Below, piece by piece: positions 2,178 to 16,891 of a stretch of DNA of 16,891 nucleotides. Position 1 is the first letter of the stretch, and the number at the start of each line of letters is the position of its first letter. This DNA comes from Bacteroidota bacterium (lineage in GTDB: Bacteria > Bacteroidota > UBA10030 > UBA6906), in assembly GCA_016844425.1 (NCBI GenBank), contig JAERML010000009.1, positions 1 through 16,891 on the forward strand. Direction: 5' to 3'. Position numbers and translations under genes: made by a program. The notes beneath the pieces were generated by a model. It was not told the origin of the DNA, searched no databases, and worked only from the letters and a program-made list of their open reading frames with translations.

Positions 2178-3599
2178 TCACATCCTTGGACGCCGCGTGT
2201 GCCAATCAGTCAGCGTTTGATAAGCGTGCGCCAGTTCGAGAACATTCGCTTCCTCCATCGGAGGGCCTATGATCTTCAGACCGATCGGAAGACCGTCTTT
2301 GTTGAACCCGCATGGAACAGAGGCCGCAGGGAGTCCGAGCAAATTCTCGGCCGCCTCAATAGAATTGCCTCCTCGAAATATCGACTCCATGTCCGCTTCT
2401 ATGGATGGCGCACATTGCAGTGTGCTAGACCCGAGAATGATATCATAACGGCTGAAGAGTAGAGCGAAATCCCGAGCAATGATGGTTCGGAGGCGCTGAC
2501 ATCGGAGATAGTCCACGGCGGTGATCAGTTGGCCGCCGAGTAATTCGCCTCTTCGGTCAGGATCGATGATACCATCGAGCTTGCCAGCGCGAACCAGCGG
2601 CTCGAATGCCGACGCTTCCTCCGCGGCGATAATGGTTCCAGCAATGGTTTCGTATGGGTGTGAGGGTAGAAGGATCTCATTGGCAGTGATGCCAATGCCG
2701 CCAAGTGTCTGCAAGGCGCGGGAAAAGGCAGCAGCCACGTCGGATTCGCCCCACCGGGCGTAGTCCTCCTTGACGAACCCAACGCGTAGAGTGCGAACCT
2801 TCTCAGCCGCCTTTGCAAACGAAGGGCGGAAAGGTGCCTCCACGGTGCATATGTCATCGGGATCTTTTCCCTTCAGCGCATCAAAGACGATGGAGGAGTC
2901 ACGCGCCGTCCGTGTAAGAAAGCCGACCTTGTCCATAGTCCAGGAAAGCGCCATTACCCCCACTCTGCTGATGCGGCCGAAGGAAGGTCTCAAACCGGTT
3001 ACTCCGCAAAAGGAAGCGGGAGTCATGATTGATCCCCATGTTTCAGTGCCGAGCGCAAACACAGCAAGGCCGGCAGCCACTGCCGCACCCGAGCCACTGG
3101 ATGATCCGCCCGACCAGCGTTGAAGGTCCCATGGTGTTCGACAGGCGCCTGTTGCACTTGCTGTGGGTGGGCCGCCGGCGATCTCGCTCATGGCACATTT
3201 GCCAAGAAGGATGGCCCCGGCGTCATTCAGCTTGCGAATAACGGTGGCATCTTCATCGAATGTCTGATTTTGATATGGCTGTGCTCCCCACGTTGTTGGA
3301 TATCCTTTGACGGCAAAGAGGTCTTTGGCGGCGAACGGAATTCCGTGCAAGGGCCCTCGACTGAGCCCTGCGTTCACTTCCTTGTCCGCCTGTGCTGCCT
3401 GCTTCAACGCAAGTTCCGGTGTTGTAGAGACAAATGCATTCAAACGCGGTGACAATTTCTCAATGCGGTCAAGGTACGCTTCCGTAAGGCGGACGGCAGT
3501 GACCTGTCGGCGTTTGATTAATCGAGAGAGTTCGGTGATCGGTGCAAACAGAATATCTTCTGTAATCATAGGCGCGTTGAAAGCTCGCTGCTGTAACAA
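2178..3599 (-). CDS. Amidase (amidase-signature family), main catalytic part
   Basis: This 473-codon frame carries the whole amidase-signature domain, which hydrolyses amide bonds with a Ser-cisSer-Lys triad. By the family pattern the triad is Lys92 (HGIPFAAKD), Ser167 (WSGGSSSGSGAA) and Ser190 (GTETWGSIMTPA). All three are present. The nucleophile loop reads TWGS instead of the common T/D-x-GGS, which I believe occurs in one secreted amidase branch. The frame opens only with a TTG (complement 3597-3599) that has no convincing Shine-Dalgarno. The true N-terminus is very probably the Tat-like ORF at 3566-3853, one frame away: joining the two near 3597 would give about 558 residues, as expected for this branch. 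It is therefore best read as a frameshifted gene or a sequence with a one-base error. Substrate unknown; GatA is unlikely, since no gatB or gatC is nearby. Confidence 0.88.
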   Translation of the reverse strand: MLQQRAFNAPMITEDILFAPITELSRLIKRRQVTAVRLTEAYLDRIEKLSPRLNAFVSTTPELALKQAAQADKEVNAGLSRGPLHGIPFAAKDLFAVKGYPTTWGAQPYQNQTFDEDATVIRKLNDAGAILLGKCAMSEIAGGPPTASATGACRTPWDLQRWSGGSSSGSGAAVAAGLAVFALGTETWGSIMTPASFCGVTGLRPSFGRISRVGVMALSWTMDKVGFLTRTARDSSIVFDALKGKDPDDICTVEAPFRPSFAKAAEKVRTLRVGFVKEDYARWGESDVAAAFSRALQTLGGIGITANEILLPSHPYETIAGTIIAAEEASAFEPLVRAGKLDGIIDPDRRGELLGGQLITAVDYLRCQRLRTIIARDFALLFSRYDIILGSSTLQCAPSIEADMESIFRGGNSIEAAENLLGLPAASVPCGFNKDGLPIGLKIIGPPMEEANVLELAHAYQTLTDWHTRRPRM

Positions 3600-3853
3600 A
3601 ATGCAGGTGAAAGGCTGTTCGGAAGATCGTTCGCACGGAGGGAAGAGAGCCTCTCCTCGTGCTTCGAAAGAAATCCCGCCGTGAGTCTCTTCTCTTCCGG
3701 TGTAAGGAAGCGACCGGCAATGGAATCAGGGATAGTAGGATTAGAGGTTCTCTGTTCCGTCTGTGGTATTTCAGCCGTACTGTCTCGTGAGGCTGGAAGA
3801 ACAGCAGAGGTTATCAGAAGGGTTGTGAATGCTCGGCGAGTTAATCGCTCCAT
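3566..3853 (-). CDS. N-terminal part of the amidase with Tat-like signal, separated by a frameshift
   Basis: This 95-codon frame starts MERLTRRAFTTLLITSAVLP, a twin-arginine-like signal (RRAFTTLLI followed by a hydrophobic stretch). It continues with a segment resembling the conserved N-terminal extension of secreted amidases: FLTPEEKRLTAGF, then ERLSSLRANDLPNSLSPAF. It overlaps the catalytic frame by 34 bp and stops at complement 3566-3568. Adding one T in the four-T run of the minus strand (plus-strand AAAA at 3598-3601) would fuse it to the amidase frame. The ATG at complement 3851-3853 is preceded by GGAG at a suitable distance, so this is a plausible real translation start. Whether the break is a sequencing error, a mutation or a recoding site cannot be told from one sequence. 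Confidence 0.65.
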   Translation of the reverse strand: MERLTRRAFTTLLITSAVLPASRDSTAEIPQTEQRTSNPTIPDSIAGRFLTPEEKRLTAGFLSKHEERLSSLRANDLPNSLSPAFCYSSELSTRL

Positions 3854-4140: not shown

Positions 4141-4716
4141 ATGCTCTGGAAACTGCTTTTGCCTTTAGTTTTCCCCATTTGTCTGCTTGCACAACAGGAA
4201 CCCCCTACCTTGGCTCTTTCCCCATATGGCTCATATCACGGATATGGACCTGCACTAGGATTTCGCCCATCTTTTGGTTATGGCTTTCACGTCATCTATT
4301 CGCCACTCCCCCGCACAGCGATAAGCGCCAGGATTTCACTCAGTAGAACAAGCGTCGAGTTTGACCTCATCAACGCACAAGACCGCATTGATGTTGGTGT
4401 CATATCCTATCAGCTCGGGATTCGGCAACAAACAGCAAGTGTGGGCTCACTATTCGATATCGACCTTTCGGGAAACGTGGGGATGATCCGCTTTGTGAGG
4501 GAGGCAAAAACGATCTCCCTTGGTGCTCTCGGCACCACTGTCATCCCAGAGAAAACAGATACTCGTTCCATTTACAGCGTTGGCGTGATACTTTCTCGCG
4601 CAATAGGTTCGAGGGTTTCGATCGACGTCATGCCCGAGGTTCAGTTTATCTCTCCACTCTCGGAACGACAAGGGAACTATTCAATTTCTGGAGGGCTTGC
4701 CATTGGTATTCTCTAG
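4141..4716 (+). CDS. Secreted beta-barrel-like protein of unknown function
   Basis: This 191-residue protein starts with a signal peptide (MLWKLLLPLVFPICLLAQ, cleavage probably near residue 17). The rest alternates polar and hydrophobic residues in short strands rich in Gly, Ser, Tyr and Phe (for example FRPSFGYGFHVIYSP and SISGGLAIGIL at the end). It has no long helix after the signal. This fits a small outer-membrane beta-barrel of about eight strands, but I recognise no named family. It is the first gene after the divergent promoter region and its 3' end overlaps the next gene, so the two are probably translated together. The site before the ATG (AGGGGAT) is a weak ribosome binding site. 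Confidence 0.7.
   Translation: MLWKLLLPLVFPICLLAQQEPPTLALSPYGSYHGYGPALGFRPSFGYGFHVIYSPLPRTAISARISLSRTSVEFDLINAQDRIDVGVISYQLGIRQQTASVGSLFDIDLSGNVGMIRFVREAKTISLGALGTTVIPEKTDTRSIYSVGVILSRAIGSRVSIDVMPEVQFISPLSERQGNYSISGGLAIGIL
4690..4695 (+). promoter_or_regulatory. Ribosome binding site inside the first barrel gene, setting the start of the second
   Basis: GGAGGG lies 7 bases before the TTG at 4703 and only 1 base before the TTG at 4697, so 4703 is the better start. The site lies within the 3' end of the upstream gene, consistent with translational coupling. Confidence 0.5.
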
Positions 4717-5281
4717 GCGACTCAGAATTGCGGCTGGCACTTTCATGTCGGTTTTGTGTCTTCTCTCCACTCAGCTGCATGCACAGGAAGTCCCTCAAGA
4801 ACCCGTGGTGCAGGCACCACCGAAGAATCTCATTGATCTCAACGAGGGAGTGTCGTTTGAGATCGCACCTCACACAGGATTGATGGGAAGCAGCGGAACA
4901 TTCGGACTGAAACTCTCGATGAACTACAGTGCATTTACCCTTGAACTCGCCGGCGAACAGGTGATTGGGAGGACAGCCAATCTCTACCCGATCTCGGTAA
5001 ATGCACTCCTCAACTTGAGCACGAGGGGACAACTGATTCCGTACGGTGCCGTTGGTGGCGGTCTCCTGCTGACAGTACCGACGAATACAATTGGTGACCA
5101 AACCGTCTCGACATTGGGAGTGAATTTTGGCGGTGGCGCCCGGTACTACATTACAAAAACCTTTGGCTTCAGGATCGAAGGGAAGCAATATGTTACCAGT
5201 GTTTCAAACGATCGCGAATCAAAAAATGAACTCCTTTTCTTTCAAGAGATCAGCGTCGGCGTCACATTCATGTTACACTAA
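4703..5281 (+). CDS. Outer-membrane beta-barrel-like protein
   Basis: From the TTG at 4703 this is 192 residues. The start is MVFSRRLRIAAGTFMSVLCL, a normal signal peptide ending near LHAQ. The ATG at 4745 would leave an implausibly short signal with no positive charges, and the TTG at 4697 is too close to the GGAGGG site. The mature part consists of short amphipathic strands with glycine-rich turns (YGAVGGGLLL, NFGGGARYYI) and ends in VGVTFMLH. This is the pattern of OmpA-like/OMP_b-brl proteins, with alternating residues and an aromatic near the C-terminus. It overlaps the preceding gene by 14 bp and lies 24 bp before the next, probably in the same operon. Function unknown; it could be a small barrel tied to the haem lipoprotein downstream. 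Confidence 0.72.
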   Translation: MVFSRRLRIAAGTFMSVLCLLSTQLHAQEVPQEPVVQAPPKNLIDLNEGVSFEIAPHTGLMGSSGTFGLKLSMNYSAFTLELAGEQVIGRTANLYPISVNALLNLSTRGQLIPYGAVGGGLLLTVPTNTIGDQTVSTLGVNFGGGARYYITKTFGFRIEGKQYVTSVSNDRESKNELLFFQEISVGVTFMLH

Positions 5282-5305: not shown

Positions 5306-5866
5306 ATGACACACCGGTACCTCCTTTACATCGCAATTATTGTCAGCATGGCGTTGACCGCGCAAGAATCCGCACGTGCTCAGCTCCGCTATGAGAACAG
5401 TCTGAGCCTTTCGGCCGGCGCCTATGCAGCAAGTGGATTCGGCACGAACCAATTCTTTGGCGTACGGTACAATTATTTCTTTCTCGGGGGGAGGTATTTC
5501 GTGGAAGGTTCGCTGGGGTTTGGCAGTCTCCGCTCCAGAGTGTTGGAGAACGTTGCCAAGTCACAGGTGTTTAGTTCTGAGCGGCTGTACGCATACGAAT
5601 TTGTCTTCGCCTACGATGCATTCCCCTCCGGTTTTCTGCCGTTCTTTGCCTTCGGCGTTGCCGGTCTAAACCAGGGAGGAGAGTCCACGTTTGCCGGTGT
5701 TCTCGGACTCGGCAAGCGAATCCCTTTAGCTGGATTTCTCGGGACCAACCAACTTGGTGTCCGGTACGATATCCGTGACCAGATTTTCTCCCAGAGGATC
5801 AACAACAGCGATCCGTATATCGCACACAACCTGGTCTTCACCTTCGGGTTGCAGTTCTACTTCTAG
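5306..5866 (+). CDS. Outer-membrane beta-barrel protein of unknown function
   Basis: This 186-residue protein has a clear signal peptide (MTHRYLLYIAIIVSMALTAQ, cleavage near ARA-Q). The mature chain starts LRYENSLSLSAGAYAASGFG and ends in LVFTFGLQFYF. An aromatic C-terminal residue in an alternating strand is the classic insertion signal of outer-membrane barrels. The repeated Gly-Phe/Tyr pattern (FFGVRYNYFFLGGRYFVEG) supports about eight strands. It resembles the general 'outer membrane beta-barrel domain' group but no specific member. The ATG at 5306 follows GGAG at about 9 bases. It is the third small barrel in a row and precedes the HzsA-related gene by 54 bp (24 bp if that gene starts at 5891). 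Confidence 0.75.
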   Translation: MTHRYLLYIAIIVSMALTAQESARAQLRYENSLSLSAGAYAASGFGTNQFFGVRYNYFFLGGRYFVEGSLGFGSLRSRVLENVAKSQVFSSERLYAYEFVFAYDAFPSGFLPFFAFGVAGLNQGGESTFAGVLGLGKRIPLAGFLGTNQLGVRYDIRDQIFSQRINNSDPYIAHNLVFTFGLQFYF

Positions 5867-5920: not shown

Positions 5921-8155
5921 ATGAACGCACAAATGTTGTTGTGTCGACGTCTCCTATTCGGAGTCTCTTTTCCGGTGTTGGGGCTTGTGCTTGCCTCATG
6001 CGGCTCATCCCCCCCCGATGATATTCTTCAGAGATCTTCCGCAGCGCTCGTGTTTGTGAAGGAACCGAGCCAGCGTAACAACGGGAGCGGCCCCATGGAA
6101 AGTAACATCGATGAGTATTACCCGGGTACCGACCTGTACCTTCTCAGCCCAATTTCCAGCCAGGGTGAGCTGACGAATCTGACAGCTCAATACACCACCG
6201 CCGGTCAGTCCGATCCGCGACGGTATGGCGCCGCTGTAGACCCTGAAGTTTCGCATGACGGGAGGAAGGTACTCTTCTCGATGAAGAAAAACAGCGGCGA
6301 CCGCTGGCACATCTATGAAATGAATGCGGACGGAAGCAACCTCAACCCTCTGACGGACCAGACGGGGAGCGACGATATGGATCCTACATATCTCCCCAAT
6401 GGCCAGATCATGTTCACCTCAACACGCTCAGGTATCGTTGACGAATACGAGCGGCGATCTTCACCGTTGCTTCACGTGGGCGATCGCGGAGCCAACGGCA
6501 GGCTGACCAATATTCGACAAGTGTCGTTCAATCAGAGCCATGACACGAACCCGATTGTTCATTCCAGTGGAAAAATCTTCTACAGCCGGTGGGAGCACTT
6601 GGGCGACCCCAACAAGTTTCCCCTCTTTGTCATGAACCCCGACGGGACGAGGCCATTTGTTCTCTACGGCAACCATTCCCCGCGCGAGAGCGGAAGCCGT
6701 GTGTTCCTCGAACAGCGTGAACTCTCCGACGGCGGGATAGTCTGTTCTGTAATGGAGCGGAATTCCCCGTTCGAGGGGGGCGCCATCGCTATCATCGATA
6801 TTTCAAAGTCGGATGACAACCTGACTTTCATCACTCCTGCCACAGTGCCGTTCAACAACACGAACTTGCCAACAAGTGCATTATTCAAGACACCTCACCC
6901 GATCATCGATAGGAACGTTGAGCGGATCATTGTCTCCATGTCACCCATTCCGATCAGCGGGATGGGAGAAGAGGAGGTTGACTACGGGCTGTACGTGATG
7001 AACAAAGACGGGAATAACGTCCAGCTCATTTATAACGATCCTGCCTACAACGAGTACGATGCGGTGCCCGTCATGCCACGCGAGAATCTCCCCGGCGGCG
7101 TTCCCGCTATTATTCCCACGGACCCCAATGTTGCGGCGGCGATTGCGGCCGGCGTGCAAACGGGGATGTTTTTTGACGGTAACGTCTACGATCGGGCAAC
7201 AACCGACGGGCAGACGCGACCATCGTCCGCGTTCGTCAATGACGACGGCTCCGTGGGACAGGCGAAGTACCTCCGCATCCTGGAAGCGATCCCCTTGCCG
7301 CGCAGTAGCAACATGCGTGGCGGTCCGATCGGAAATACAAACTTCGAAAAGCAGCGCGTGGTCGGGTATGCCCCCATCCGATCCGATGGTTCGTTCTCAG
7401 CTGACGTCCCTGCGAACAAGTCGCTCCATATGCAGACACTCGACCAGTACGGCATGATGCTTGTAAACCAGCTGACGTGGGTGCAAGTCATGCCGGGAGA
7501 ACGACGACTCTGTACTGGGTGCCACGACTCTCATGACAGGGACCGGATCATTAACGACCTTGAAATCATGTCAAGTATGCAGGTCCGAAACAGAGCGACA
7601 GGCTCGACCTACAACTCCGGCTTCAACAACGCGGATGTGGTTACCGCTCACCCAGCGGCTCCTGCTCCCACTGACACAATGGATTTCTTTGACCGATACC
7701 GACCAAACAGAACGAACACGATCCAGGCAATCTTCGAATCTCGCTGCCAGTCGTGCCACGGTCTTTCGAATCCGGGCGGTCCTGCAGGTGGCCTCTCGCT
7801 GGAGAATCTGACGATTGACAGGACTCCACCCCCACCGAACTCAAATATGAGTGCGACCACCTCTGTGTACGATTCACTGATGGACGGGAGGTATCGAACC
7901 GCTACGAACCAAATGATCGATCACGTTTCTCCCTATGGTGCTCGACGCAGTCCACTAATGTGGGCAATGTATGGCAGACAGCTCAATAGCTCCAGCAACA
8001 CGGACTACCGCCCGTTGAGCTATGACCATACGCAACTCTGGACGCGGGACCAATACAACCGGATCGATCCATTTCTTCCGGCAAACAAACCGCTGCTGAA
8101 CATCATTGAATGGTTGGATGCGGGAAGCCAGTACTCCAACACGATTGCGCGTTGA
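5921..8155 (+). CDS. HzsA-related dihaem lipoprotein with PD40/TolB-like propeller
   Basis: From the ATG at 5921 this is 744 residues. It starts with a lipoprotein signal (CRRLLFGVSFPVLGLVLASC, lipid-anchored Cys27). I prefer this start over ATGs at 5891 and 5906 because GAGG lies just before it and the signal length becomes normal. The central part has PD40/TolB-type propeller blades, for example DPEVSHDGRKVLFSM, MNADGSNLNPLT and DPTYLPNGQIMFTSTRSG. The C-terminal part has two c-type haem sites: CTGCH (Cys531-His535), inside the typical VMPGERRLCTGCHDS context, and CQSCH (Cys609-His613). This architecture matches the HzsA-related family, distant from the alpha subunit of anammox hydrazine synthase. 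No HzsB or HzsC homologue is visible here, so hydrazine synthesis should not be assumed. It is probably an envelope redox protein, acting with the TlpA/DUF4266/DUF3570 genes that follow at 7-30 bp spacing. Confidence 0.87.
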   Translation: MNAQMLLCRRLLFGVSFPVLGLVLASCGSSPPDDILQRSSAALVFVKEPSQRNNGSGPMESNIDEYYPGTDLYLLSPISSQGELTNLTAQYTTAGQSDPRRYGAAVDPEVSHDGRKVLFSMKKNSGDRWHIYEMNADGSNLNPLTDQTGSDDMDPTYLPNGQIMFTSTRSGIVDEYERRSSPLLHVGDRGANGRLTNIRQVSFNQSHDTNPIVHSSGKIFYSRWEHLGDPNKFPLFVMNPDGTRPFVLYGNHSPRESGSRVFLEQRELSDGGIVCSVMERNSPFEGGAIAIIDISKSDDNLTFITPATVPFNNTNLPTSALFKTPHPIIDRNVERIIVSMSPIPISGMGEEEVDYGLYVMNKDGNNVQLIYNDPAYNEYDAVPVMPRENLPGGVPAIIPTDPNVAAAIAAGVQTGMFFDGNVYDRATTDGQTRPSSAFVNDDGSVGQAKYLRILEAIPLPRSSNMRGGPIGNTNFEKQRVVGYAPIRSDGSFSADVPANKSLHMQTLDQYGMMLVNQLTWVQVMPGERRLCTGCHDSHDRDRIINDLEIMSSMQVRNRATGSTYNSGFNNADVVTAHPAAPAPTDTMDFFDRYRPNRTNTIQAIFESRCQSCHGLSNPGGPAGGLSLENLTIDRTPPPPNSNMSATTSVYDSLMDGRYRTATNQMIDHVSPYGARRSPLMWAMYGRQLNSSSNTDYRPLSYDHTQLWTRDQYNRIDPFLPANKPLLNIIEWLDAGSQYSNTIAR

Positions 8156-8162
8156 GGATGCG

Positions 8163-8654
8163 ATGACGAAGCGATCTCTTGTCATTCTCTTCACGATGTG
8201 TGCACTGACCGCCAGAGTGTATGGGCTGGGGCCGGAGTGGGTGGGAAAGCCCGCCCCCGGTTTCTCGCTGCGCACCATGGATGGGACCGCCACACTTTCC
8301 CTTGGGCAGTTGCGGGGTCAGGTAGTCGTTGTTGATTTCTGGGCGAGCTGGTGCGCGCCGTGTAAGCGTTCGCTTCCCCAACTTGCGGCAATGGAGGCAA
8401 ACCACCCCGGGCTGAAAGTTATTGCCATCAATATCGATGATGAACGACAGAAAGCCGTTGAGTTTTTGAAGAGAAACAGGATCAAGCTGATCGCTCTCTA
8501 TGATGAGAAGAAGGATGTGGTGACAACGTACGATGTACCGGTGATGCCATCGGCGTTGATCATCGACAGGAAAGGTGTTGTCCGGTATGTACATGTGGGG
8601 TACACCGACGACGACCTCGATCAGTTCAAAAGGGAAATCCAGGGACTATTATAG
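8163..8654 (+). CDS. TlpA-like thioredoxin-fold protein, exported
   Basis: This 163-residue protein starts with a signal sequence (MTKRSLVILFTMCALTARVY). Next come an AhpC/TSA-type lead-in (VGKPAPGFSLRTMDG), the active site WCAPC (Cys64 and Cys67 within DFWASWCAPCKRS) and the cis-proline loop VPVMPSALIIDRKG (Pro129). All redox residues of the TlpA/ResA family are intact. The ATG at 8163 is chosen because GAGG precedes it by 5 bases and it gives a clean signal peptide; an upstream in-frame ATG at 8106 lies inside the preceding gene. Acting in the periplasm, it could keep haem-site cysteines reduced for cytochrome c maturation. It could also act on the two cysteines of the DUF4266 product, whose gene begins only 8 bp downstream. 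Confidence 0.92.
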   Translation: MTKRSLVILFTMCALTARVYGLGPEWVGKPAPGFSLRTMDGTATLSLGQLRGQVVVVDFWASWCAPCKRSLPQLAAMEANHPGLKVIAINIDDERQKAVEFLKRNRIKLIALYDEKKDVVTTYDVPVMPSALIIDRKGVVRYVHVGYTDDDLDQFKREIQGLL

Positions 8655-8659
8655 GAGGT
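8653..8659 (+). promoter_or_regulatory. Strong ribosome binding site for the DUF4266 gene
   Basis: AGGAGGT is a near-perfect Shine-Dalgarno. It starts inside the stop codon of the TlpA-like gene (TAG at 8652-8654). It is 3 bases before the GTG at 8663 and 6 before the GTG at 8666, so the second GTG may be the actual start. This is the strongest site seen in the operon, which suggests high production of the small lipoprotein. Confidence 0.6.
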
Positions 8660-8662
8660 GGT

Positions 8663-8887
8663 GTGGTGCGAGTGTTCTTTGCATTCATTGTTGTGGGGGC
8701 GGCTGCACTATCCGCCGCCGGATGTGCCACAGTCAAAGCGTATGAGCGTGAGAAGTTGACCGATCCGATTATGAAGCAGGACAATCAATTTGCCAAGCAG
8801 TCGCTTGAGCAGAAATTTTTCTCCACTCGCGAGGGGAGCATCGGCGGGGCTAGCGGCATCGGTGGGGGATGTGGGTGCGCGAAGTAG
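8663..8887 (+). CDS. DUF4266-family small lipoprotein with Gly-rich CGC tail
   Basis: This 74-residue protein has a GTG start (8663, or one codon later at 8666). The signal MVRVFFAFIVVGAAALSAAGC ends in a lipobox-like AAGC with Cys21 as lipid site. The short mature part reads TVKAYEREKLTDPIMK, then FFSTREGSIGGASGIGGG and CGC just before the C-terminal AK. 'V..YERE.L.DPIM' followed by 'REG..GG.(G)GGCGC' is the DUF4266 pattern as I remember it. The function of the family is not known to me. Conserved paired cysteines (70 and 72) in a flexible glycine-rich tail suggest metal binding, redox chemistry or post-translational modification. It sits between the TlpA-like gene (8 bp) and the DUF3570 gene (30 bp), an arrangement I recall from other genomes. 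Confidence 0.85.
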   Translation: MVRVFFAFIVVGAAALSAAGCATVKAYEREKLTDPIMKQDNQFAKQSLEQKFFSTREGSIGGASGIGGGCGCAK

Positions 8888-8917
8888 TGTATCTACTCAA
8901 TATTCCATGAGCCTTGT

Positions 8918-10057
8918 ATGCGACGTGTAGCAAAGCCGGTTGCTGTCGTTCTCCTTCCCCTGATGACTCTATGGGCAGTTACCCCGGTGTATGCGGCAGG
9001 GGGAGACCAGATGGGACTTACGACATACTACTTCTCGGACAGCGGCGAAAACAGTGTCGTCACGACATCGTTTAGTCTGGCGAAGAAACTTCTCCAGCAA
9101 ACCGTTTTCCTGATTGATATTGAACTGGACCATGTCACGGTTCCCCCCGTTACCGCGATTACCGGCGCCACCCGGCCGCAGCGAAAAAAGAGCGAGCCGT
9201 TCGAGAAGAGTCGCGGACAGTTGATAGTTGGCGTGGAGCAAGGGATTGGGGCAACGTCAACATTTGCGGCCAATTTCTATCGTAGCCAGGAAGTGGACTA
9301 CACTTCCAGCGCAGTCATCGGCACCTTCAGTCAGGAGTTGAACAACAAGAACACGACGCTCACGCTCCGCGGTCAGTACAATCACGACCTGGTGGGAAAA
9401 ATTCAGGATGCCGGGGACATCGTCAACAAAAAGAAGAAGACAATCACCGGAACGGTCAACATCAATCAACTTCTTTCACCAACGACAGTGCTCGATTTGA
9501 GCTATGACCATGTGATATTGTCCGGTTTCATCAGCGATCCATACAGGCAAGTCCGGGTTACAGATCCCAGCGGGACAACGTTGACAGACGAATTGCATCC
9601 ATCAAAGCGGACGCGCCAGGCCGCCTCCGGCAAGATTAGTCAGATGATACCAACGATCAAAGCGTCGTTGATTGGCAGCTATCGGTATTATTTTGATACG
9701 TGGAAGGTCCGCTCTCACACCGGCGAGATCCGGTTCAATAAGTACATCATCAATGATCTGATTTTCGGCGTCGACTACCGGTATTATACACAGAATGCGG
9801 CGTACTTCACACAAAAGACATATACCGGGTCGGAATACCTGAATGGAGCGCTGCGGACTGCAGACTACAAACTGAAGAAATTCAGTTCCAACAACTTCGG
9901 GTTCAGTCTCGAATACCTCTTGCGCGGACTCGGGCGCTCCAACCCCGATCTGGATTTTTTGCAGAATTCATCCATTGAATTCATGTACTTCCGGTATTTT
10001 AACAATCTGGAGTTTTCGGCGGACATCCTTCAGGCGAGCTTGAAATTTTCGATCTAG
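8918..10057 (+). CDS. DUF3570-family outer-membrane protein
   Basis: This 379-residue protein has a signal peptide (MRRVAKPVAVVLLPLMTLWA, cleavage near VYA-AGG). The body is made of alternating beta-strands, suggesting a large outer-membrane barrel. The family hallmarks are in the second half: HPSKRTRQAASGKIS, then SYRYYFDTWKVRSHTGEI and GVDYRYYTQNAAYFTQK. These match the DUF3570 consensus 'TRQA...YRYY.D.W.(I)RSHT...YRYYTQ.AA.FY'. It ends in ADILQASLKFSI, compatible with a barrel C-terminus. It follows the DUF4266 gene by 30 bp and is probably in the same transcript. It may provide outer-membrane passage or a docking surface for the lipoproteins. No biochemical function is known to me. The ATG at 8918 has only a weak ribosome binding site. 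Confidence 0.88.
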   Translation: MRRVAKPVAVVLLPLMTLWAVTPVYAAGGDQMGLTTYYFSDSGENSVVTTSFSLAKKLLQQTVFLIDIELDHVTVPPVTAITGATRPQRKKSEPFEKSRGQLIVGVEQGIGATSTFAANFYRSQEVDYTSSAVIGTFSQELNNKNTTLTLRGQYNHDLVGKIQDAGDIVNKKKKTITGTVNINQLLSPTTVLDLSYDHVILSGFISDPYRQVRVTDPSGTTLTDELHPSKRTRQAASGKISQMIPTIKASLIGSYRYYFDTWKVRSHTGEIRFNKYIINDLIFGVDYRYYTQNAAYFTQKTYTGSEYLNGALRTADYKLKKFSSNNFGFSLEYLLRGLGRSNPDLDFLQNSSIEFMYFRYFNNLEFSADILQASLKFSI

Positions 10058-10095: not shown

Positions 10096-12507
10096 ATGAT
10101 ACGATCTCTGCTGTTGCTGACTGTGATAAGTGTGCTCGGCATTGCGGCCGGGTTTGCAGGCGAGGTAAAATCGCCGGAAGCTCTTGGAGCTCACTGGGCA
10201 CGTGTTTCCGATGAGGCACAAATCCAGTTCGTAGTGGATGAACTGCGGGCTGTTGCCATGGGTCGGGGAAGCGAGAGAATCGTGCGGAAGCACGTAGCCC
10301 AGGGTGTTTCCCTGTTGTCGATCATGAGCACAGATGAGTCCGCGATAAAACGGATAGCCATTGCGTTGCGCAAAGCAGACGTGCGCGTCAATGGCAATAC
10401 GGCAACGGCGGAAGTCCGGCCCGGCGAGCAACTCCAGTTTGAGAAACGGAACAACACATGGATGGTAGTTGGCGGGAGAATGACGGTGTCGCCACGGCAA
10501 GACGGTCAGCCCCGCTCGACGATTGTGCCAAGTGCGGGCCCTTCCGTCGGGGAGACGTTCATTGCCACACCGATCAGCAGGGATAATGGGATCGAACGAC
10601 TATCGCGAAGCGTTACCCAGTCGAAGATCGACCGGACTCTCTTCTCCACGCCGGAGAAAACTGCGTCATACTATTATGCTCATTATACTCAGACCGCTCC
10701 GTATGTCTCGGCCACATACATTCAGTTTGTTACCGACCCATCCTGGAATCGGATTGTGTATGGAAATATGAACCGGTGGATCCGTGCGTATGACGTTGCC
10801 GGTCCTTCTGCGATTGCTGTGGATGCAGACGGTCGCGTATTTGTGGGAGAGTTGCAGAACAACCGCATCCTGGCCCTCCAGGTTGTCGGAGAAGGAAACG
10901 ATGCACAACTCCAGCCCCGGTTTGTCATACCGGATGTTGCCAACCCAACCGACATTGCGCTGGATGACAATGGTACACCACTCAACACTGCTGATGACGC
11001 GCTCTATGTTGCAGATGCATCACGGAACGTTGTTTTAAAGTATGCCATCGGCCCCACGGGCGCAACGTTGGCGGCGACGTTCGATGGCTTTGACTCGCCG
11101 ACAAGTGTCCTCGTGGGCAAGTGGAATGGCGCGGCCAATGGACTGGTTTATGTTGTGGATAAGCTTGCCAAACGCATCCGCGTGTTCGATGATCTTGGTT
11201 CCGAGCTATCACTCATCAAGGAACTGATAGGAAGTTATAGAGAGTACTTCAAGGCGATCAAAGCGGACCATTTTGGCAACGTGTACGTTGTCGATAATAT
11301 CCACTCGCGCGTATTCAAGTATACATCTGCGCTTGAGCTCCTTGATGCCCAGGGGAACGACGATACGTTTGCTGCCCTTGGCAATGTGGATGTCCCATTT
11401 GGGAAGATTGTCGTGGACGGTCAGGGGACGTACTGGGCCGGGTTCGATCAGATGTTTGCGGTTGAACGCTGGTCGGATGCCAGCGGCGCACAAAGGCGAA
11501 CGCTGGGTCTCGGTCTGAAGAATATCATCTTCCACGCGGATGAAGACATCGCGACGATCGAGAACACTTTCACGTTGACAGACTTTGGCAATGTGGGAAT
11601 CAGAATTTACGACGGCGCGGACAAACTTGTTCGCACACTGAGTTCTTCCTGGATGGTATCGGGGGCGAAGAGTCTGGTGTGGGATCGCCGGAACGATGCA
11701 GGGGAACAGGTGCCGGCGGGAACGTATCGTTACGAGATCGGGGCTGTCCCGTCCTACCGGGATGAGCCGACCATTTCCAGGACTGAGTTCTACCTGCCAC
11801 TATATTACTGGGAAAACAGTGGCAGCACAGTTGCGGCAGACGATGCGCACCTCGTTCAGGGAAGCGCCGTACGATGGGGTTCCGACCCCTCGCAGACGGC
11901 GAACGAGGATCCGTCGTCTGTGCGGTATCGGTTCACCGGCCTCAATCCGGAGAGCGAGTACATGGTTGCTGCCGAGTATGTCGCGCACAACAACATCCCG
12001 CGACAGCAGGACATGACCGTGAACGGGATGCGGCTCCATGAAACAGTGTCGGTAAGCAGCACGTCAACGAAGATTGACTACATCAAGCTGCCCAAGGAAA
12101 GTTATGCCGGGGGAGAGGCAACCATCAGCATCAACAGTCAGGCTGGAGGTTCGGCAATCGTCTCACAGCTCTGGTTCAAAGAGACCGGTAGAGGATTTGC
12201 GCCGAAACAACTGGATGGCTCGTTGCCGACGGCATACAAACTTGAACAGAATTATCCCAATCCTTTCAATCCGTCCACTGTGATTCGCTACGCTGTGCCT
12301 GCGGACGGTTCGGTGTCGTTGAAAGTATATGACATCGCGGGTCGCGAGGTGGCCACGCTCGTAAACGATCAGCAAGCGGCAGGGACGTATGAGATCCGGT
12401 TCAATGGAGAGAACTCTTCGGGCCGTGCGCTCGCATCGGGGGTGTATTTCTATCAGATCAAGTCGGGCGGGTTCTCCGAAACCCGCAAGATGCTACTGTT
12501 GAAATAG
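10096..12507 (+). CDS. Type IX-secreted NHL-propeller protein with FlgD-like segment and Por sorting domain
   Basis: This 803-residue protein follows a strong GGGGAGGAG site. A signal peptide (MIRSLLLLTVISVLGIAAGF) is followed by a region of about 100 residues (25-130) that I cannot assign. Residues about 215-460 hold NHL-type propeller blades: GPSAIAVDADGRVFVGE, NPTDIALDDNG, IKADHFGNVYVVDN and VDGQGTYWAG. Residues about 490-550 resemble a FlgD-Ig strand set (IRIYDGADKLVRTL, VWDRRNDAGEQVPAGTYRYE). Residues about 565-700 form a further beta-rich domain. Residues 713-803 are a type IX secretion C-terminal domain (EQNYPNPFNPST, GREVATLVN, SGVYFYQIKSG, TRKMLLLK). The protein should cross the outer membrane through the type IX system and stay at the cell surface or be released. 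It is the last gene of the run and is followed by a strong hairpin. Confidence 0.9.
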   Translation: MIRSLLLLTVISVLGIAAGFAGEVKSPEALGAHWARVSDEAQIQFVVDELRAVAMGRGSERIVRKHVAQGVSLLSIMSTDESAIKRIAIALRKADVRVNGNTATAEVRPGEQLQFEKRNNTWMVVGGRMTVSPRQDGQPRSTIVPSAGPSVGETFIATPISRDNGIERLSRSVTQSKIDRTLFSTPEKTASYYYAHYTQTAPYVSATYIQFVTDPSWNRIVYGNMNRWIRAYDVAGPSAIAVDADGRVFVGELQNNRILALQVVGEGNDAQLQPRFVIPDVANPTDIALDDNGTPLNTADDALYVADASRNVVLKYAIGPTGATLAATFDGFDSPTSVLVGKWNGAANGLVYVVDKLAKRIRVFDDLGSELSLIKELIGSYREYFKAIKADHFGNVYVVDNIHSRVFKYTSALELLDAQGNDDTFAALGNVDVPFGKIVVDGQGTYWAGFDQMFAVERWSDASGAQRRTLGLGLKNIIFHADEDIATIENTFTLTDFGNVGIRIYDGADKLVRTLSSSWMVSGAKSLVWDRRNDAGEQVPAGTYRYEIGAVPSYRDEPTISRTEFYLPLYYWENSGSTVAADDAHLVQGSAVRWGSDPSQTANEDPSSVRYRFTGLNPESEYMVAAEYVAHNNIPRQQDMTVNGMRLHETVSVSSTSTKIDYIKLPKESYAGGEATISINSQAGGSAIVSQLWFKETGRGFAPKQLDGSLPTAYKLEQNYPNPFNPSTVIRYAVPADGSVSLKVYDIAGREVATLVNDQQAAGTYEIRFNGENSSGRALASGVYFYQIKSGGFSETRKMLLLK

Positions 12508-12885: not shown

Positions 12886-13191
12886 ATGGCTCATAGAATT
12901 TTCATAGCGTTTCTCTTTTTCATTACCATTGCCGCTGTGGTTGCCGTTGGGCTCAAGGGGTTTGGATATTATTTTACACCGGTCCACGAGCGCCCCTTTC
13001 GGAGCGACTATGAAATGATGAAGACATCGGGGAACTACAGCCTCGGTCTCGGGATCATCGGAGCGACAATGATCATTGTGGGGGTAAGTACGTACTCCAC
13101 GCGCAAGCGAGTTCGAGCACTATGGGATCTGGGGAAGCTCTCACGGTGGCTTGAATTCCACATCTTTCTGTGTCTTCTCTGTGGACGATGA
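12886..13191 (+). CDS. Haem-type membrane protein, N-terminal fragment (gene broken)
   Basis: This 101-codon frame contains two membrane helices (about residues 5-24 and 50-68, the second reading SLGLGIIGATMIIVGVSTYS). A basic loop (STRKRVRALWDLGKL) follows, then SRWLEFHIFLCLL, where the frame ends in CGR and a stop. In the family I recall, LSRWLEFHIFLCLLGP starts a third helix and leads into a histidine-containing segment. Here the reading continues only in another frame, at the ORF beginning 13170. The two pieces belong to one gene of the ferric-reductase/cytochrome-b-like membrane type that often sits beside multihaem cytochromes. No Shine-Dalgarno is visible before the ATG. Confidence 0.65.
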   Translation: MAHRIFIAFLFFITIAAVVAVGLKGFGYYFTPVHERPFRSDYEMMKTSGNYSLGLGIIGATMIIVGVSTYSTRKRVRALWDLGKLSRWLEFHIFLCLLCGR

Positions 13192-13685
13192 TTTCAGTGG
13201 CTTCAAGCGGGATTGTAGGGAGGTTCCTCTACATTCAAATTCCTCGCAATCTTCAGGGTGCGGAATTGGATGCCTCGCAAATAGCGAAGGAGCTGGACCG
13301 TCTTTCAGCGCTCCTTGCCTCCTCACCGGTTGGCGCACTTCTTATCAAAGTCATTGACGAACGATTTGCATCGATGAAACGGCCGGCCACATTCCTTCAA
13401 GCTGTCTCTGGCTACCTTCACCTGCGAACCTTGCGGAGGGAAGTGCGAGCAACGATGGGGCTTCTCCTTGCGAAAGCAAGAGTCCCCCATCGCGAAGCAC
13501 GCGACCTCGAGCGGATTGCGTCAGTGCGCGCATCGCTGCTCCAGAAATCGATCATTGTTGGGCAGGTTGGACGTCTGTTCCACTACTGGCATGTTATCCA
13601 CTTGCCTTTTTCCATTATCATGTTCATCACTCTTGCCGCCCATGTGGTGGTCTCGTTGTTGATGGGCTACACCTGGGTGTTCTAA
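13170..13685 (+). CDS. Haem-type membrane protein, C-terminal fragment (gene broken)
   Basis: This 171-codon frame is opened only by an internal GTG. It begins SSLWTMISVASSGIVGRFLY and continues IQIPRNLQGAEL, a cytoplasmic helical stretch (about residues 35-125) and a last membrane segment. The last segment reads GRLFHYWHVIHLPFSIIMF, then LAAHVVVSLLMGYTWVF. The histidines in HYWHVIH and LAAHV are likely haem ligands by analogy with cytochrome-b-like membrane proteins. Compared with the family as I remember it, about 20 residues seem to be missing between LCLL of the upstream fragment and LWTM here, and the frame changes. It lies 13 bp before the TPR gene. It would normally pass electrons between the quinone pool and the periplasmic cytochromes encoded downstream. 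Confidence 0.65.
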   Translation: MSSLWTMISVASSGIVGRFLYIQIPRNLQGAELDASQIAKELDRLSALLASSPVGALLIKVIDERFASMKRPATFLQAVSGYLHLRTLRREVRATMGLLLAKARVPHREARDLERIASVRASLLQKSIIVGQVGRLFHYWHVIHLPFSIIMFITLAAHVVVSLLMGYTWVF

Positions 13686-14293: not shown

Positions 14294-15934
14294 ATGACGA
14301 ATCGATTGTGTGCTCTTATTGCACTGGCACTTGTCATGGCTAGTGGCCGTTTGCAGGCGCAATTCTCCCCTGGAGAATTGTCCCGTGTACACCGGCAATT
14401 GGAGGGAACAGAGAACTGTGCAAAGTGTCATGAAGTGGGAAAGGAGATCAGTGGTGCGAAGTGTCTTGACTGTCATGGAGAGATCAAGGCGGCGATTGAT
14501 TCGAAGCACGGATATCATGCGTTGGTGGCCCCGAAGAAATGCGTATCGTGCCACAAGGAACACCTGGGGCTTTCTGCGCAGACTGTTATCTTCAAGAAGG
14601 AAAGTTTTGATCATCAGCAGACAGGTTATGTACTGACGGGCAAACATCAGCAGACGCAATGCGAGCGATGTCATGATGCGAAGAATATCAGGGATCAGGG
14701 AGTGAAGACGCTGGTACAGAAAACAGGCAGGCAGTCCTATCTTGGACTCGCAACAACATGCAACTCGTGCCACGAGGACCGGCACCGGGGGAGTGTGGGA
14801 ACCGAATGTCAGTCATGCCATACCACTGACGCCTGGGCGCCTGCATCGAAGTTCGATCATGCGCGAACGAAGTTCGCCCTGACGGGGAAACACACGACCG
14901 TGGTCTGTGCAAAATGCCACACCGAGATCAGCGACCGAGCGGGCCAGAAGCCAATCATTCTTGCGACGAAGGCGTTTGCCGACTGCTCGCCATGTCATGC
15001 ATCGCCTCACAGGGAGAAGTTTGCCGGACGCGAATGCAAATCCTGCCATGTGACCGACGGTTGGCGGGGAACGAGTAGTCGACGGTTTGATCACAACCTG
15101 ACGGGGTTCAAGCTTCTTGGCAGTCATGCACGATTGCAGTGCCAGGACTGCCACAAGGAAAAACCAGGGATGTCACGGGCAAGCATGTATCGTCTCCCGC
15201 ATGACCGGTGCACCGACTGTCACACGGACTACCATCAAGGAGAGTTTGTAAAGAAGTACGGGAGTGACTGCCGCAAGTGTCATACGGAGGAATCGTTCAC
15301 ATCCTCCACGTTCACGATGGGGCAACACGCGACGCTCCGGTTTGTGCTCACCGGGGCACATAGCGCGACGCCATGCACTGCATGCCACGTGAAGAACAGT
15401 GAAGGGAGAAGGGTGTTCCACTTTGCCAGCCTCCGGTGCGAAGCATGTCACAAGGACCGGCACGGAGGACAGTTCACGAAACTCATGACCGACCAGAGTT
15501 GCGCGGTCTGCCATTCGACCTCCGATTGGAGGACGAACTCGTTTGACCACGCACGAACTTCATTTTCTTTACTGGGCAAACATGCAACCACGTCGTGCAC
15601 AGAATGCCACAAGCCTGCGCGGGTGACGTTGGTGGTCCAGTACAAAGGGACTCCTTCTGACTGCCAATCATGTCACAAGGAAGTTCATGTGGGACAATTC
15701 GCGGTTGCTGGAAAGACAAACTGCAAGTCGTGTCATAAGCCGGAGGGGTGGAAAGTGCCGGCTTTCAACCATACAACCCAGAGCGTTTTCGCGTTGACGG
15801 GGGCTCACGCAAAAGTCCGCTGTGGCGCCTGCCATAAAGAAGAATTGATCGGTGGAACAAGGGCACGTCGTTTCAAACCAGTACCAACCAAGTGTGAATC
15901 CTGCCACACGTCCAAAGGGGTGAAGAATGGCTAA
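14294..15934 (+). CDS. Multihaem cytochrome c with 20 CxxCH motifs
   Basis: From the ATG at 14294 this is 546 residues with a signal peptide (MTNRLCALIALALVMASGRL, cleavage near QAQ). The frame is open further upstream into the TPR gene, but only this start gives a signal peptide. I count 20 CxxCH haem sites, from CAKCH at Cys42 to CESCH at Cys534, about one per 27 residues. A repeated element, (F)-D/N-H-x-x-T-x-F-x-L-T/L-G-x-H, appears about six times before haem sites (for example KFDHARTKFALTGKH, SFDHARTSFSLLGKH). Its histidines probably act as distal haem ligands. This fits the cytochrome c3-like/multihaem family and predicts a long periplasmic or extracellular electron wire. It has no membrane helix besides the signal. 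The stop overlaps the start of the next cytochrome by 8 bp. Confidence 0.93.
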   Translation: MTNRLCALIALALVMASGRLQAQFSPGELSRVHRQLEGTENCAKCHEVGKEISGAKCLDCHGEIKAAIDSKHGYHALVAPKKCVSCHKEHLGLSAQTVIFKKESFDHQQTGYVLTGKHQQTQCERCHDAKNIRDQGVKTLVQKTGRQSYLGLATTCNSCHEDRHRGSVGTECQSCHTTDAWAPASKFDHARTKFALTGKHTTVVCAKCHTEISDRAGQKPIILATKAFADCSPCHASPHREKFAGRECKSCHVTDGWRGTSSRRFDHNLTGFKLLGSHARLQCQDCHKEKPGMSRASMYRLPHDRCTDCHTDYHQGEFVKKYGSDCRKCHTEESFTSSTFTMGQHATLRFVLTGAHSATPCTACHVKNSEGRRVFHFASLRCEACHKDRHGGQFTKLMTDQSCAVCHSTSDWRTNSFDHARTSFSLLGKHATTSCTECHKPARVTLVVQYKGTPSDCQSCHKEVHVGQFAVAGKTNCKSCHKPEGWKVPAFNHTTQSVFALTGAHAKVRCGACHKEELIGGTRARRFKPVPTKCESCHTSKGVKNG

Positions 15935-16891
15935 GACATTGATGCTCCTTGTCCTTGTCGTTTCGGTTGCCGTCGCTCAGGAGTCGCCGCATGGCAAGAT
16001 CAAACTCGAATGTTCCACCTGCCACGCAACCGATTCCTGGGAAATGAAAAAGGATGCAACATTCAACCACGCGACCACGGGATTTGCCCTCACGGGGCAA
16101 CATCGTTTGGTGCAGTGCGCTTCGTGCCACAAGGGACTGAAGTTCGATACGAAGATGGACCAGAACTGCACTTCTTGTCATACCGACATCCACAAAGCAG
16201 AGCTTGGCCCGAATTGCCTACGCTGTCACTCCACACAGTCGTGGCAAGTGACAGACATGATCCAGAAGCACCAGCAGACACGATTCCCCCTGCTAGGTCG
16301 CCACTCAACGATCAGTTGCCAGTCCTGCCACGTGCGCGCTGCAGAGCATCAGTTCATCGGCACACCCACGGAGTGCGTTTCCTGCCACCGGGATGAGTTC
16401 AAGGCGACGATTTCACCGAACCATGCTGCAGCAGGCTTTTCCACCGACTGCGTCCAATGCCATAAGGTCACGGCACTTACATGGGGAGGCGGATTCAACC
16501 ATAATCTGACCTCGTTTCCTTTGACTGGCTCGCATACGGCCGTTGCGTGCGTTTCGTGTCACCAGAACCAGGTCTTCAAAGGAACACCAAGCCAGTGCGT
16601 GGCGTGTCATCAGACAGATTTCTCGAACTCTACGAATCCCAACCATGCGGCGGCAAACTTCACCACGGATTGCCAGACATGCCATACAACACAACGGTGG
16701 CAAGGGGCGCGGTATGATCATAACGTGACGCGCTTCCCTCTCACGGGTGCGCATCAACAGGCTCCGTGTCAGAGCTGCCATGGCGACAATGCCTTCGCTG
16801 GCAAGTCGATGGACTGCGTGTCGTGCCACCTGGCCGACTATACAGCGACGCGGAACCCGAACCATGCGAGCGGCGGATTCCCGCAACAGTG
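15927..16891 (+). CDS. Second multihaem cytochrome c, N-terminal part (runs off the right edge)
   Basis: This frame opens at the ATG at 15927 and stays open to the window end: 321 codons and two further bases. The start MAKTLMLLVLVVSVAVAQES is a signal peptide and AAGGGGTG lies just before it. The first eight bases (ATGGCTAA) contain the stop codon of the upstream cytochrome, so translation is probably coupled. I count 12 CxxCH motifs, from CSTCH near residue 29 to CVSCH in MDCVSCHLADY. The motif FNH..T.F.LTG.H occurs four times in variant form (TFNHATTGFALTGQH, GFNHNLTSFPLTGSH, RYDHNVTRFPLTGAH and a looser QKHQQTRFPLLGRH). The last third is a regular array of three-haem modules about 73 residues long. 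It is probably a periplasmic or extracellular electron carrier, partner of the 20-haem protein. Confidence 0.92.
   Translation, partial: MAKTLMLLVLVVSVAVAQESPHGKIKLECSTCHATDSWEMKKDATFNHATTGFALTGQHRLVQCASCHKGLKFDTKMDQNCTSCHTDIHKAELGPNCLRCHSTQSWQVTDMIQKHQQTRFPLLGRHSTISCQSCHVRAAEHQFIGTPTECVSCHRDEFKATISPNHAAAGFSTDCVQCHKVTALTWGGGFNHNLTSFPLTGSHTAVACVSCHQNQVFKGTPSQCVACHQTDFSNSTNPNHAAANFTTDCQTCHTTQRWQGARYDHNVTRFPLTGAHQQAPCQSCHGDNAFAGKSMDCVSCHLADYTATRNPNHASGGFPQQ
16422..16891 (+). repeat. In-gene tandem three-haem modules, 219-222 bp period
   Basis: The histidine codons of the repeated NHA(A/S)xxF motif lie at 16422, 16644 and 16863, spaced 222 and 219 bp. The second marker, (F/Y)(N/D)HNxT, has its His codons at 16500 and 16719, 219 bp apart. 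Each module carries three CxxCH sites in the same order. Two complete modules are visible and a third begins at the edge. The repeat is clear in protein sequence and looser in DNA. Confidence 0.75.

Follow-up and report, generated by a model that had tools for sequence, protein, structure and literature searches.

An HZS-alpha-like dihaem lipoprotein gene in a conserved cluster with a single-motif DUF3570 gene: a probable variant of a flavin-dependent envelope redox system

Results

An envelope gene cluster and its extent

The DNA examined here (the window) is a stretch of 16,891 nucleotides, positions 1 to 16,891 of contig JAERML010000009.1 from assembly GCA_016844425.1, a Bacteroidota bacterium of the UBA10030/UBA6906 lineage. 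It contains four adjacent genes for a lipoprotein related to the alpha subunit of hydrazine synthase (the HzsA-like protein), a TlpA-type thioredoxin, a DUF4266 lipoprotein and a DUF3570 protein (Table 1). The sequence-only reading that preceded this work had described these as four exported proteins encoded with gaps of 7-30 bp; open reading frames (ORFs) and profile matches confirmed the description, all four genes lying on the + strand and the successive gaps being 7, 8 and 30 bp. Cysteines of the lipobox type were recognized by eye in the HzsA-like (LASC27) and DUF4266 (AAGC21) sequences, and the DUF4266 protein terminates in GGGCGCAK. The conserved set extends past the four genes. Genes for small outer-membrane proteins (OMPs) upstream and for an NHL-repeat protein with a type IX secretion system (T9SS) sorting domain downstream are syntenic as well, and a homologue of omp1 occupies the equivalent place in L001, L003, L004, L006, L008, L009, L010, L014 and L127. 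The earlier view of one conserved redox envelope unit held as to the unit itself, supported by synteny in three phyla (see below), and drew its limits too narrowly, missing the OMP and T9SS genes.

Table 1. Positions of the cluster genes, their motifs and the adjoining cytochrome genes in the window.
Feature	Position	Strand	Basis
omp1, small probable outer-membrane barrel protein, first of the syntenic set	4141..4716	+	ORF; without Pfam match over cut-off
omp2, small probable outer-membrane barrel protein	4697..5281	+	OMP_b-brl, 25.3 bits, under cut-off of 28.7
omp3, small probable outer-membrane barrel protein	5306..5866	+	TIGR04565, 34 bits, under cut-off of 60
HzsA-like dihaem lipoprotein	5921..8155	+	HZS_alpha PF18582, 72.7 bits (cut-off 26.6); two CxxCH
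First haem motif, CTGCH, residues 531-535, HZS_alpha middle domain	7511..7525	+	
Second haem motif, CQSCH, residues 609-613	7745..7759	+	
TlpA/ResA-like thioredoxin, WCAPC active site	8163..8654	+	TlpA/Redoxin, 80.5 bits (cut-off 26.6)
DUF4266 lipoprotein, CGCAK tail	8663..8887	+	PF14086, 60.5 bits (cut-off 27)
CXC of the DUF4266 tail	8870..8878	+	Sequence; kept in relatives
DUF3570, predicted 16-strand outer-membrane beta-barrel	8918..10057	+	PF12094, 118.2 bits (cut-off 25)
Single ApbE-type flavinylation motif, TGAT, DUF3570 residues 82-85, loop 76-94	9161..9172	+	
NHL-repeat protein with T9SS type A sorting domain	10096..12507	+	TIGR04183, 44.4 bits (cut-off 23)
Transmembrane cytochrome-like protein, ORF split, membership uncertain	12886..13685	+	
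20-haem cytochrome, membership uncertain	14294..15934	+	
Cytochrome with at least 12 haem motifs, runs off the window end, membership uncertain	15927..16891	+	

The HzsA-like protein has the HZS-alpha fold

The HzsA-like protein comprises a TolB-like propeller, an HZS_alpha middle domain and a C-terminal cytochrome c-like domain. Its AlphaFold2 (AF2) model (predicted local distance difference test, pLDDT, 79.3) matched the alpha subunit of Kuenenia stuttgartiensis hydrazine synthase over the full length (5c2v_A; Foldseek E 1.5e-33, template-modelling scores 0.67/0.65) at about 20% sequence identity, TolB propellers being the next structural matches. A search found 137 homologues, and motifs were counted among 120 listed ones. 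Two CxxCH motifs are present in all 108 listed members of at least 700 amino acids. In hydrazine synthase, Tyr591, four residues past the CxxCH histidine, ligates haem alpha-I (PMC12758564). In the window protein the first haem motif is followed by DSHDRD, with Asp at the corresponding position, and Tyr was found there in none of the 119 motif-bearing homologues among the 120 listed (D 94, S 9, N 9, E 4, A 2, T 1). The Tyr ligand being absent, this haem site is likely to be an ordinary one. A tyrosine ligand is also lacking in clades I-III of the four clades (I-IV) of non-anammox HZS-alpha homologues described previously (PMC12758564).

As for candidate beta and gamma subunits, a search of the 6 kb around each of 21 HzsA-like ORFs found no further ORF with at least two CxxCH motifs, several contigs ending sooner. 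These ORFs correspond to about 20 genes, L013 and a contig-end piece near L148 (both of genome G013) probably being parts of one. The match to the NCBIfam hydrazine synthase equivalog NF052339 (128.1 bits) falls well short of its cut-off of 800. The protein has the whole HZS-alpha fold without features tied to anammox; the sequence-only reading, noting that HzsB/C are absent, had likewise found anammox-type chemistry unsupported.

The cluster recurs in three phyla

HzsA-like genes were found in 20 genomes, which belong to Ignavibacteria, Calditrichota and Fibrobacterota. Fourteen loci came from a contig scan with an HzsA-like alignment; their records named Ignavibacteria, Chlorobi, Calditrichota (or kin), Fibrobacteria and, in one case, "Deltaproteobacteria", the genome of this last record being placed by genome search in the phylum of G004. 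Six further genomes of the type emerged from DUF3570 searches (G115, G324, G332, G413, G419 and G425). The HzsA-like gene adjoins a DUF3570 gene in 15 of the 20 genomes, and in four (G003, G006, G007 and G014) the contig ends before a DUF3570 gene is reached. Of the 294 genomes in the class of G001, five carry a member of the family; four of these show the adjacency, and the contig of the fifth (G014) breaks off within the HzsA-like gene. The order omp2-omp3-HzsA-like-(TlpA)-DUF4266-DUF3570 is repeated in loci of all three phyla, so that the four-gene arrangement is not due to chance, nor is the HzsA-like neighbour peculiar to the window's genome. The NHL/T9SS gene comes next in Ignavibacteria and Calditrichota wherever the cluster sequence extends far enough, and does not in Fibrobacterota. 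TlpA, already suspected to be a recurrent companion, is a neighbour in 11 of 15 HzsA-type relatives. The DUF4266 tails, which were read in the first three locus sets, end in CGC[AS]K in the HzsA-type clusters and in CGCG, CGCN, CGC or CGCVQ elsewhere. One locus has an additional lipoprotein-like gene with a weak fn3 match between the HzsA-like and TlpA genes (L001:12603-13358). No description of the HzsA-like/DUF3570 link was found in the open-access literature searched; the supplements of PMC8238504 may list some such clusters.

Most DUF3570 genes counted have either ApbE or the HzsA-like gene as a neighbour

Within that literature, DUF3570 and DUF4266, which the sequence-only reading took to lack a known function, are named only in PMC8238504 (Meheust et al. 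2021). There, the DUF3570 protein of Chlorobium luteolum was demonstrated to be flavinylated by its ApbE at two [S/T]GA[S/T] sites, and DUF4266, with its CXC tail, was proposed to be a CXC redox protein. DUF3570 (227), thioredoxin-like (183) and DUF4266 (221) genes were counted in DsbD clusters with ApbE; another 316 clusters combine ApbE, DUF3570, thioredoxin-like and DUF4266 genes without DsbD, which is thus optional (PMC8238504).

Genomes with DUF3570 numbered 21 of 294 in the class of G001, 9 of 40 in the phylum of G004, 11 of 100 in the phylum of G012 and 86 of 296 in the phylum of G001. The census took in the loci of that class and of the phyla of G004 and G012, plus 40 of the 86 positive Bacteroidota genomes at one locus each; four others were already included and further copies were left out. 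This gave 101 genes of at least 350 amino acids, the window not counted; the census and the tree below exclude shorter ORFs, namely two DUF3570 pieces in L113, each of them next to ApbE. Within 3 kb, 57 genes had ApbE, 15 an HzsA-like gene, none both and 29 neither. Hence 72 of the 101 have a neighbour of one kind or the other, and DUF3570 does not lack redox neighbours in most genomes. ApbE lies near none of the 15 HzsA-adjacent genes. Those with neither comprise 23 of the Fibrobacterota set, four of Calditrichota and two of Bacteroidota; two of them (L128 and L130) lie at the end of a contig, the HzsA-like half being found at the end of another contig of that genome, and one, in L148 (G013), is a two-site DUF3570 gene some 4.6 kb away from an HzsA-like piece at the contig end. 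DUF4266 occurs within 6.5 kb of 94 of the 101. All but two of the 40 Bacteroidota loci have ApbE (38/40) and none has an HzsA-like gene. In the Fibrobacterota set, ApbE lies within 3 kb of just one of the 29 DUF3570 genes; G419, G013, G011 and G012 of this set carry four to six DUF3570 genes each.

HzsA-type DUF3570 proteins form one clade with one motif

A tree of 102 DUF3570 proteins (the 101 plus that of the window) was built by a quick method with Shimodaira-Hasegawa-like approximate likelihood ratio test (SH-aLRT) values and no bootstrap. The HzsA-type proteins formed one clade of 19 rows with an SH-aLRT of 100, the long branches lying elsewhere; it unites the 16 HzsA-adjacent proteins, that of the window included, with those of L128, L130 and L136. 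Flavinylation motifs were counted as [S/T][S/G/A/T]A[S/T] in the stretch between strands 3 and 4. Exactly one was present in each of the 19 clade members, window included; among the other 83 proteins, 77 had two or three, four had one and two had none. Alignment showed that the site lost from the clade is the first, the second being kept as [S/T]GA[S/T] followed by Arg-Pro. Searches with the window protein found 228 homologues, and the [ST]GA[ST] motif and its Arg are kept in all 120 of those listed. Extra TGAS strings in L004, L005, L120 and L128 lie outside the counted stretch.

The idea that HzsA-type DUF3570 proteins had lost flavinylation entirely was considered and rejected, a strict [S/T]GA[S/T] search having found the motif kept there. 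By that search, the motif seemed missing from most ApbE-adjacent Ignavibacteria proteins, which the alignment showed to carry [S/T][S/A/T]A[S/T] twice. Two ORFs of the Fibrobacterota set (L155:8765-10162 in G413 and L158:8131-10227 in G419) are divergent, with a His/Asp-rich insert before a single motif; one of the two is 699 amino acids long, and the accompanying DUF4266 ends in CGCVQ.

The AF2 model of the window DUF3570 protein is a 16-strand barrel (pLDDT 88.6), in keeping with the earlier description of the protein as barrel-like. Its structural matches in the VIA and Foldseek lists were barrels of many kinds; an MtrB chain was absent among the match rows shown, which is not evidence against a likeness. 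The even number of modelled strands following a signal peptide is as predicted for an outer-membrane barrel. Such barrels usually have both termini in the periplasm. By strand parity, the long loops of DUF3570, including the one with the motif, would face outward or fold into the lumen. The motif loop (residues 76-94) is poorly ordered in the model (residues 80-85 below 50) but, at 3.74 bits, better conserved than the two other long loops (3.11 and 2.89 bits).

ApbE is encoded elsewhere in most HzsA-type genomes

ApbE is encoded outside the cluster in 18 of the 20 HzsA-type genomes (12 of the 14 from the contig scan and all six others), and the window's own genome presumably encodes it too. 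In the class of G001, ApbE was found in all 21 genomes with DUF3570, as opposed to 81 of 273 without (one match below cut-off, in G171, was dropped). The telling cases are the five HzsA-like genomes of the class, four of HzsA-type plus G014, all of which have ApbE elsewhere. FMN_bind proteins are missing from 29 of the 102 ApbE genomes of the class; DUF3570 is present in 18 of these 29 as against 3 of the 73 with FMN_bind, mostly as the ApbE-adjacent type. Genomes G001, G005 and G115 encode ApbE and one detected DUF3570, of the HzsA-type, with no FMN_bind, DUF2271 or NqrB/RnfD detected, so that DUF3570 is the only known type of ApbE substrate found there. FMN_bind matches are present in G002 and G014. 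NqrB/RnfD, searched for as NQR or RNF might be the true ApbE substrate, was not found in any of these five genomes.

In G005, apbE lies with genes for PF07456, PF07009, two ATP-binding cassette (ABC) ATPases and a CbiQ-type protein, PF07456 corresponding to EetB, the S subunit for flavin adenine dinucleotide (FAD) export in Listeria (PMC9973259). By tblastn, ApbE is accompanied by EetB, EetA and energy-coupling factor (ECF) ATPases in G001, G014 and G115 as well, and at a contig end by ECF ATPases and a CbiQ-type gene in G002. The exporter set was not found beside ApbE outside Ignavibacteria in the genomes compared (G011, G012, G413, G004 and G332).

Downstream cytochromes and flanking genes

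The transmembrane cytochrome-like gene at 12886-13685 is split into two overlapping ORFs, as a result of either gene breakage or an assembly error. Intact relatives of 286 amino acids exist in G005 and G115 (L248 and L249), where, as in the window, the gene and the 20-haem and larger cytochromes lie downstream; haem motifs number 20 and 31 in the similarly placed ORFs of G005, and 20 and 37 in those of G115. In G006 (L132:8068-16766), a two-site DUF3570 gene is found with DUF4266, TlpA, genes that look by eye like two-component genes, a DUF4405-like membrane protein (a weak match of 24.4 bits, under the cut-off of 26.7), itself a relative of the split cytochrome-like protein of the window, and two 20-haem cytochromes. 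DUF4405 has been described as a flavinylation-associated cytochrome (PMC11334425). That this multihaem/DUF4405-like neighbourhood bears on the flavin system is only suggested, by four genomes of which two are close kin.

On the - strand, the window carries within 2178-3853 a GatA/AtzE-like amidase ORF and, at 3566-3853 in another frame, its possible upstream part with a twin-arginine translocation (Tat)-like start recognized by eye; the two may be one gene with a frame break. Also on the - strand, positions 3-2205 hold ORFs for a GldA-like ABC ATPase (384 bits against a cut-off of 402.6) and a permease-like protein, together with the beginning of a third gene; a PspC-domain protein lies at 1945-2205.

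Discussion

A probable one-flavin, two-haem variant

We consider it probable that the locus encodes a conserved one-flavin, two-haem variant of the extracytosolic electron-transfer system formed by ApbE, DUF3570, DUF4266 and a thioredoxin. We propose that the DUF3570 protein is an outer-membrane beta-barrel from which one of the two usual flavin sites has gone; the remaining TGAT site would receive its flavin in the periplasm, with the barrel yet to insert into the membrane, from an ApbE whose gene lies outside the cluster and which is supplied by an ECF-type FAD exporter. The Chlorobium protein was modified though expressed without its signal peptide and mostly insoluble (PMC8238504), which fits modification of an unfolded chain before insertion. 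The HzsA-like lipoprotein, placed where other clusters have apbE, would exchange electrons with the flavin barrel, the DUF4266 protein with its CXC tail and TlpA would make up a thiol branch, and the small OMPs and the T9SS protein could be accessory surface parts. Swaps between flavinylated and cytochrome components have been described in other systems (PMC8238504). We infer flavinylation of the window DUF3570, haem-flavin exchange, the direction of electron flow and the membrane side of the flavin. The earlier reading of a redox unit survives in its redox part, having overlooked the flavin, the remote ApbE and the fact that one of two flavin motifs is gone.

Several points weigh against this proposal. 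Where the canonical motif begins with Asp, all 120 listed homologues of the window DUF3570 have Thr or Ser; the Asp is replaced in Ignavibacteria and most Calditrichota members and retained in Fibrobacterota members and two of Calditrichota (L010 and L127). A review calls this Asp strictly conserved, yet its change to Ala had a minor effect (PMC12052999). The side of the membrane on which the flavin would lie is deduced solely from strand parity, and the conserved set holds no inner-membrane donor. In G011 the HzsA-like gene (L011) is on one contig and the matching DUF3570, DUF4266 and TlpA genes (L136) are on another, the only such split observed; in G006 no HzsA-type DUF3570 was found; and TlpA is missing next to DUF3570 in four of the 15 relatives (L002, L005, L120 and L129). 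ApbE was not found in two of the 20 genomes (G003 and G013), perhaps owing to incompleteness, genome completeness not being stated. FMN_bind proteins occur in 11 of the 20, where ApbE may have other work, and ApbE genomes with neither FMN_bind nor DUF3570 are not rare in the class of G001 (11/102). Finally, in 17 of the 21 DUF3570 genomes of this class ApbE is in the cluster itself; the class-wide association is mostly adjacency, which weakens the case slightly.

A more specific version, which we advance only tentatively, sees the locus as a mixed flavin-haem outer-membrane conduit, with one covalent flavin mononucleotide (FMN) in a surface or lumen loop and the dihaem lipoprotein, a relative of the redox protein recruited as hydrazine synthase alpha, replacing the second flavin. 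Swaps between flavinylated and cytochrome components have been described in other systems (PMC8238504).

It is rather unlikely, if the best of the alternatives, that the HzsA-like protein acts as a catalyst on a small N, O or S compound bound at a substrate haem, with DUF3570, DUF4266 and TlpA supplying electrons or thiols or admitting the substrate. The first haem motif is invariant in a 23-row alignment, in well-conserved surroundings; it belongs to the HZS_alpha middle domain, which houses the active-site haem in hydrazine synthase (PMC12758564), and alternative substrates have been suggested for HZS-like proteins (PMC10732223). The uniform absence of the Tyr ligand and of other ORFs with two or more CxxCH motifs nearby, as far as the contigs reach, speak against catalysis. 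Less probable still is a unit for thiol, haem or metal handling in which TlpA and the CXC tail of DUF4266 deliver reduced thiol or metal and the TGAT loop is structural and flavin-free. The Gly-rich stretch accompanying the CXC, the frequent TlpA neighbour and the replaced Asp would suit such a role, against which stand the retention of the motif in all listed homologues and clade members while its sister site was lost, the presence of ApbE in most genomes, and the Pfam profile search, which found no metal-transport or metal-binding domain among the window genes of the set. No evidence was found for the metal or cofactor handling that the sequence-only reading had entertained. That the HzsA-like gene is a passenger, kept beside DUF3570 by shared ancestry of the chromosomal stretch without joint function, is highly improbable: the separation in G011 and the mere 20 genomes found leave it some room, against the close packing of the genes, an order shared by three phyla, adjacency in all four testable cases in the class of G001 and the matching changes in DUF3570 (one site) and DUF4266 (the CGC[AS]K tail, confined to this type among the tails read).

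Were the mixed conduit real, it would add a further kind of electron path at the outer membrane to the known multihaem porin-cytochrome complexes and cytochrome wires. The clade of HZS-alpha relatives gains a conserved set of genomic partners, and DUF3570 a predicted outer-membrane place and a haem partner. Loss of a flavin motif where a dihaem protein joins would amount to a natural experiment on the mutual replacement of flavins and cytochromes in extracytosolic electron transfer. Having the full alpha-subunit fold without anammox-tied features, the HzsA-like family also bears on the origin of hydrazine synthase.

Comparison with known systems

Conduits of the MtrCAB type consist of an outer-membrane barrel porin with cytochrome redox partners. 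The window shares with them an outer-membrane barrel (here predicted) with redox partners, as well as multihaem cytochromes nearby; unlike in these conduits, the cofactor of the DUF3570 barrel is predicted to be a covalent flavin and there is no sign of a cytochrome threading the barrel. With the alpha subunit of hydrazine synthase (5C2V), the HzsA-like protein has in common the whole-length fold, the PF18582 domain and two c-type haem motifs; it differs in the absent Tyr ligand, in a lipobox and in that beta and gamma genes were not found. Clades I-IV are, like the present family, non-anammox HzsA homologues; their genes adjoin fused beta-gamma homologues and, in clades I-III, also FG-GAP proteins, whereas those described here adjoin DUF3570 and DUF4266, and the available excerpts of PMC12758564 make no mention of DUF3570. 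A further parallel in gene content is with the "DsbD systems" of PMC8238504, in which DUF3570, DUF4266 with a CXC tail and a thioredoxin-fold protein are likewise adjacent and apparently exported. The thioredoxin named there is of the PF13899 type and that of the window of the TlpA/Redoxin type. ApbE is encoded in most HzsA-type genomes too, but outside the cluster; the DUF3570 protein has one flavin motif instead of two; and the set additionally includes an HZS-alpha-like lipoprotein with two haems, small OMPs and, except in Fibrobacterota, a T9SS protein.

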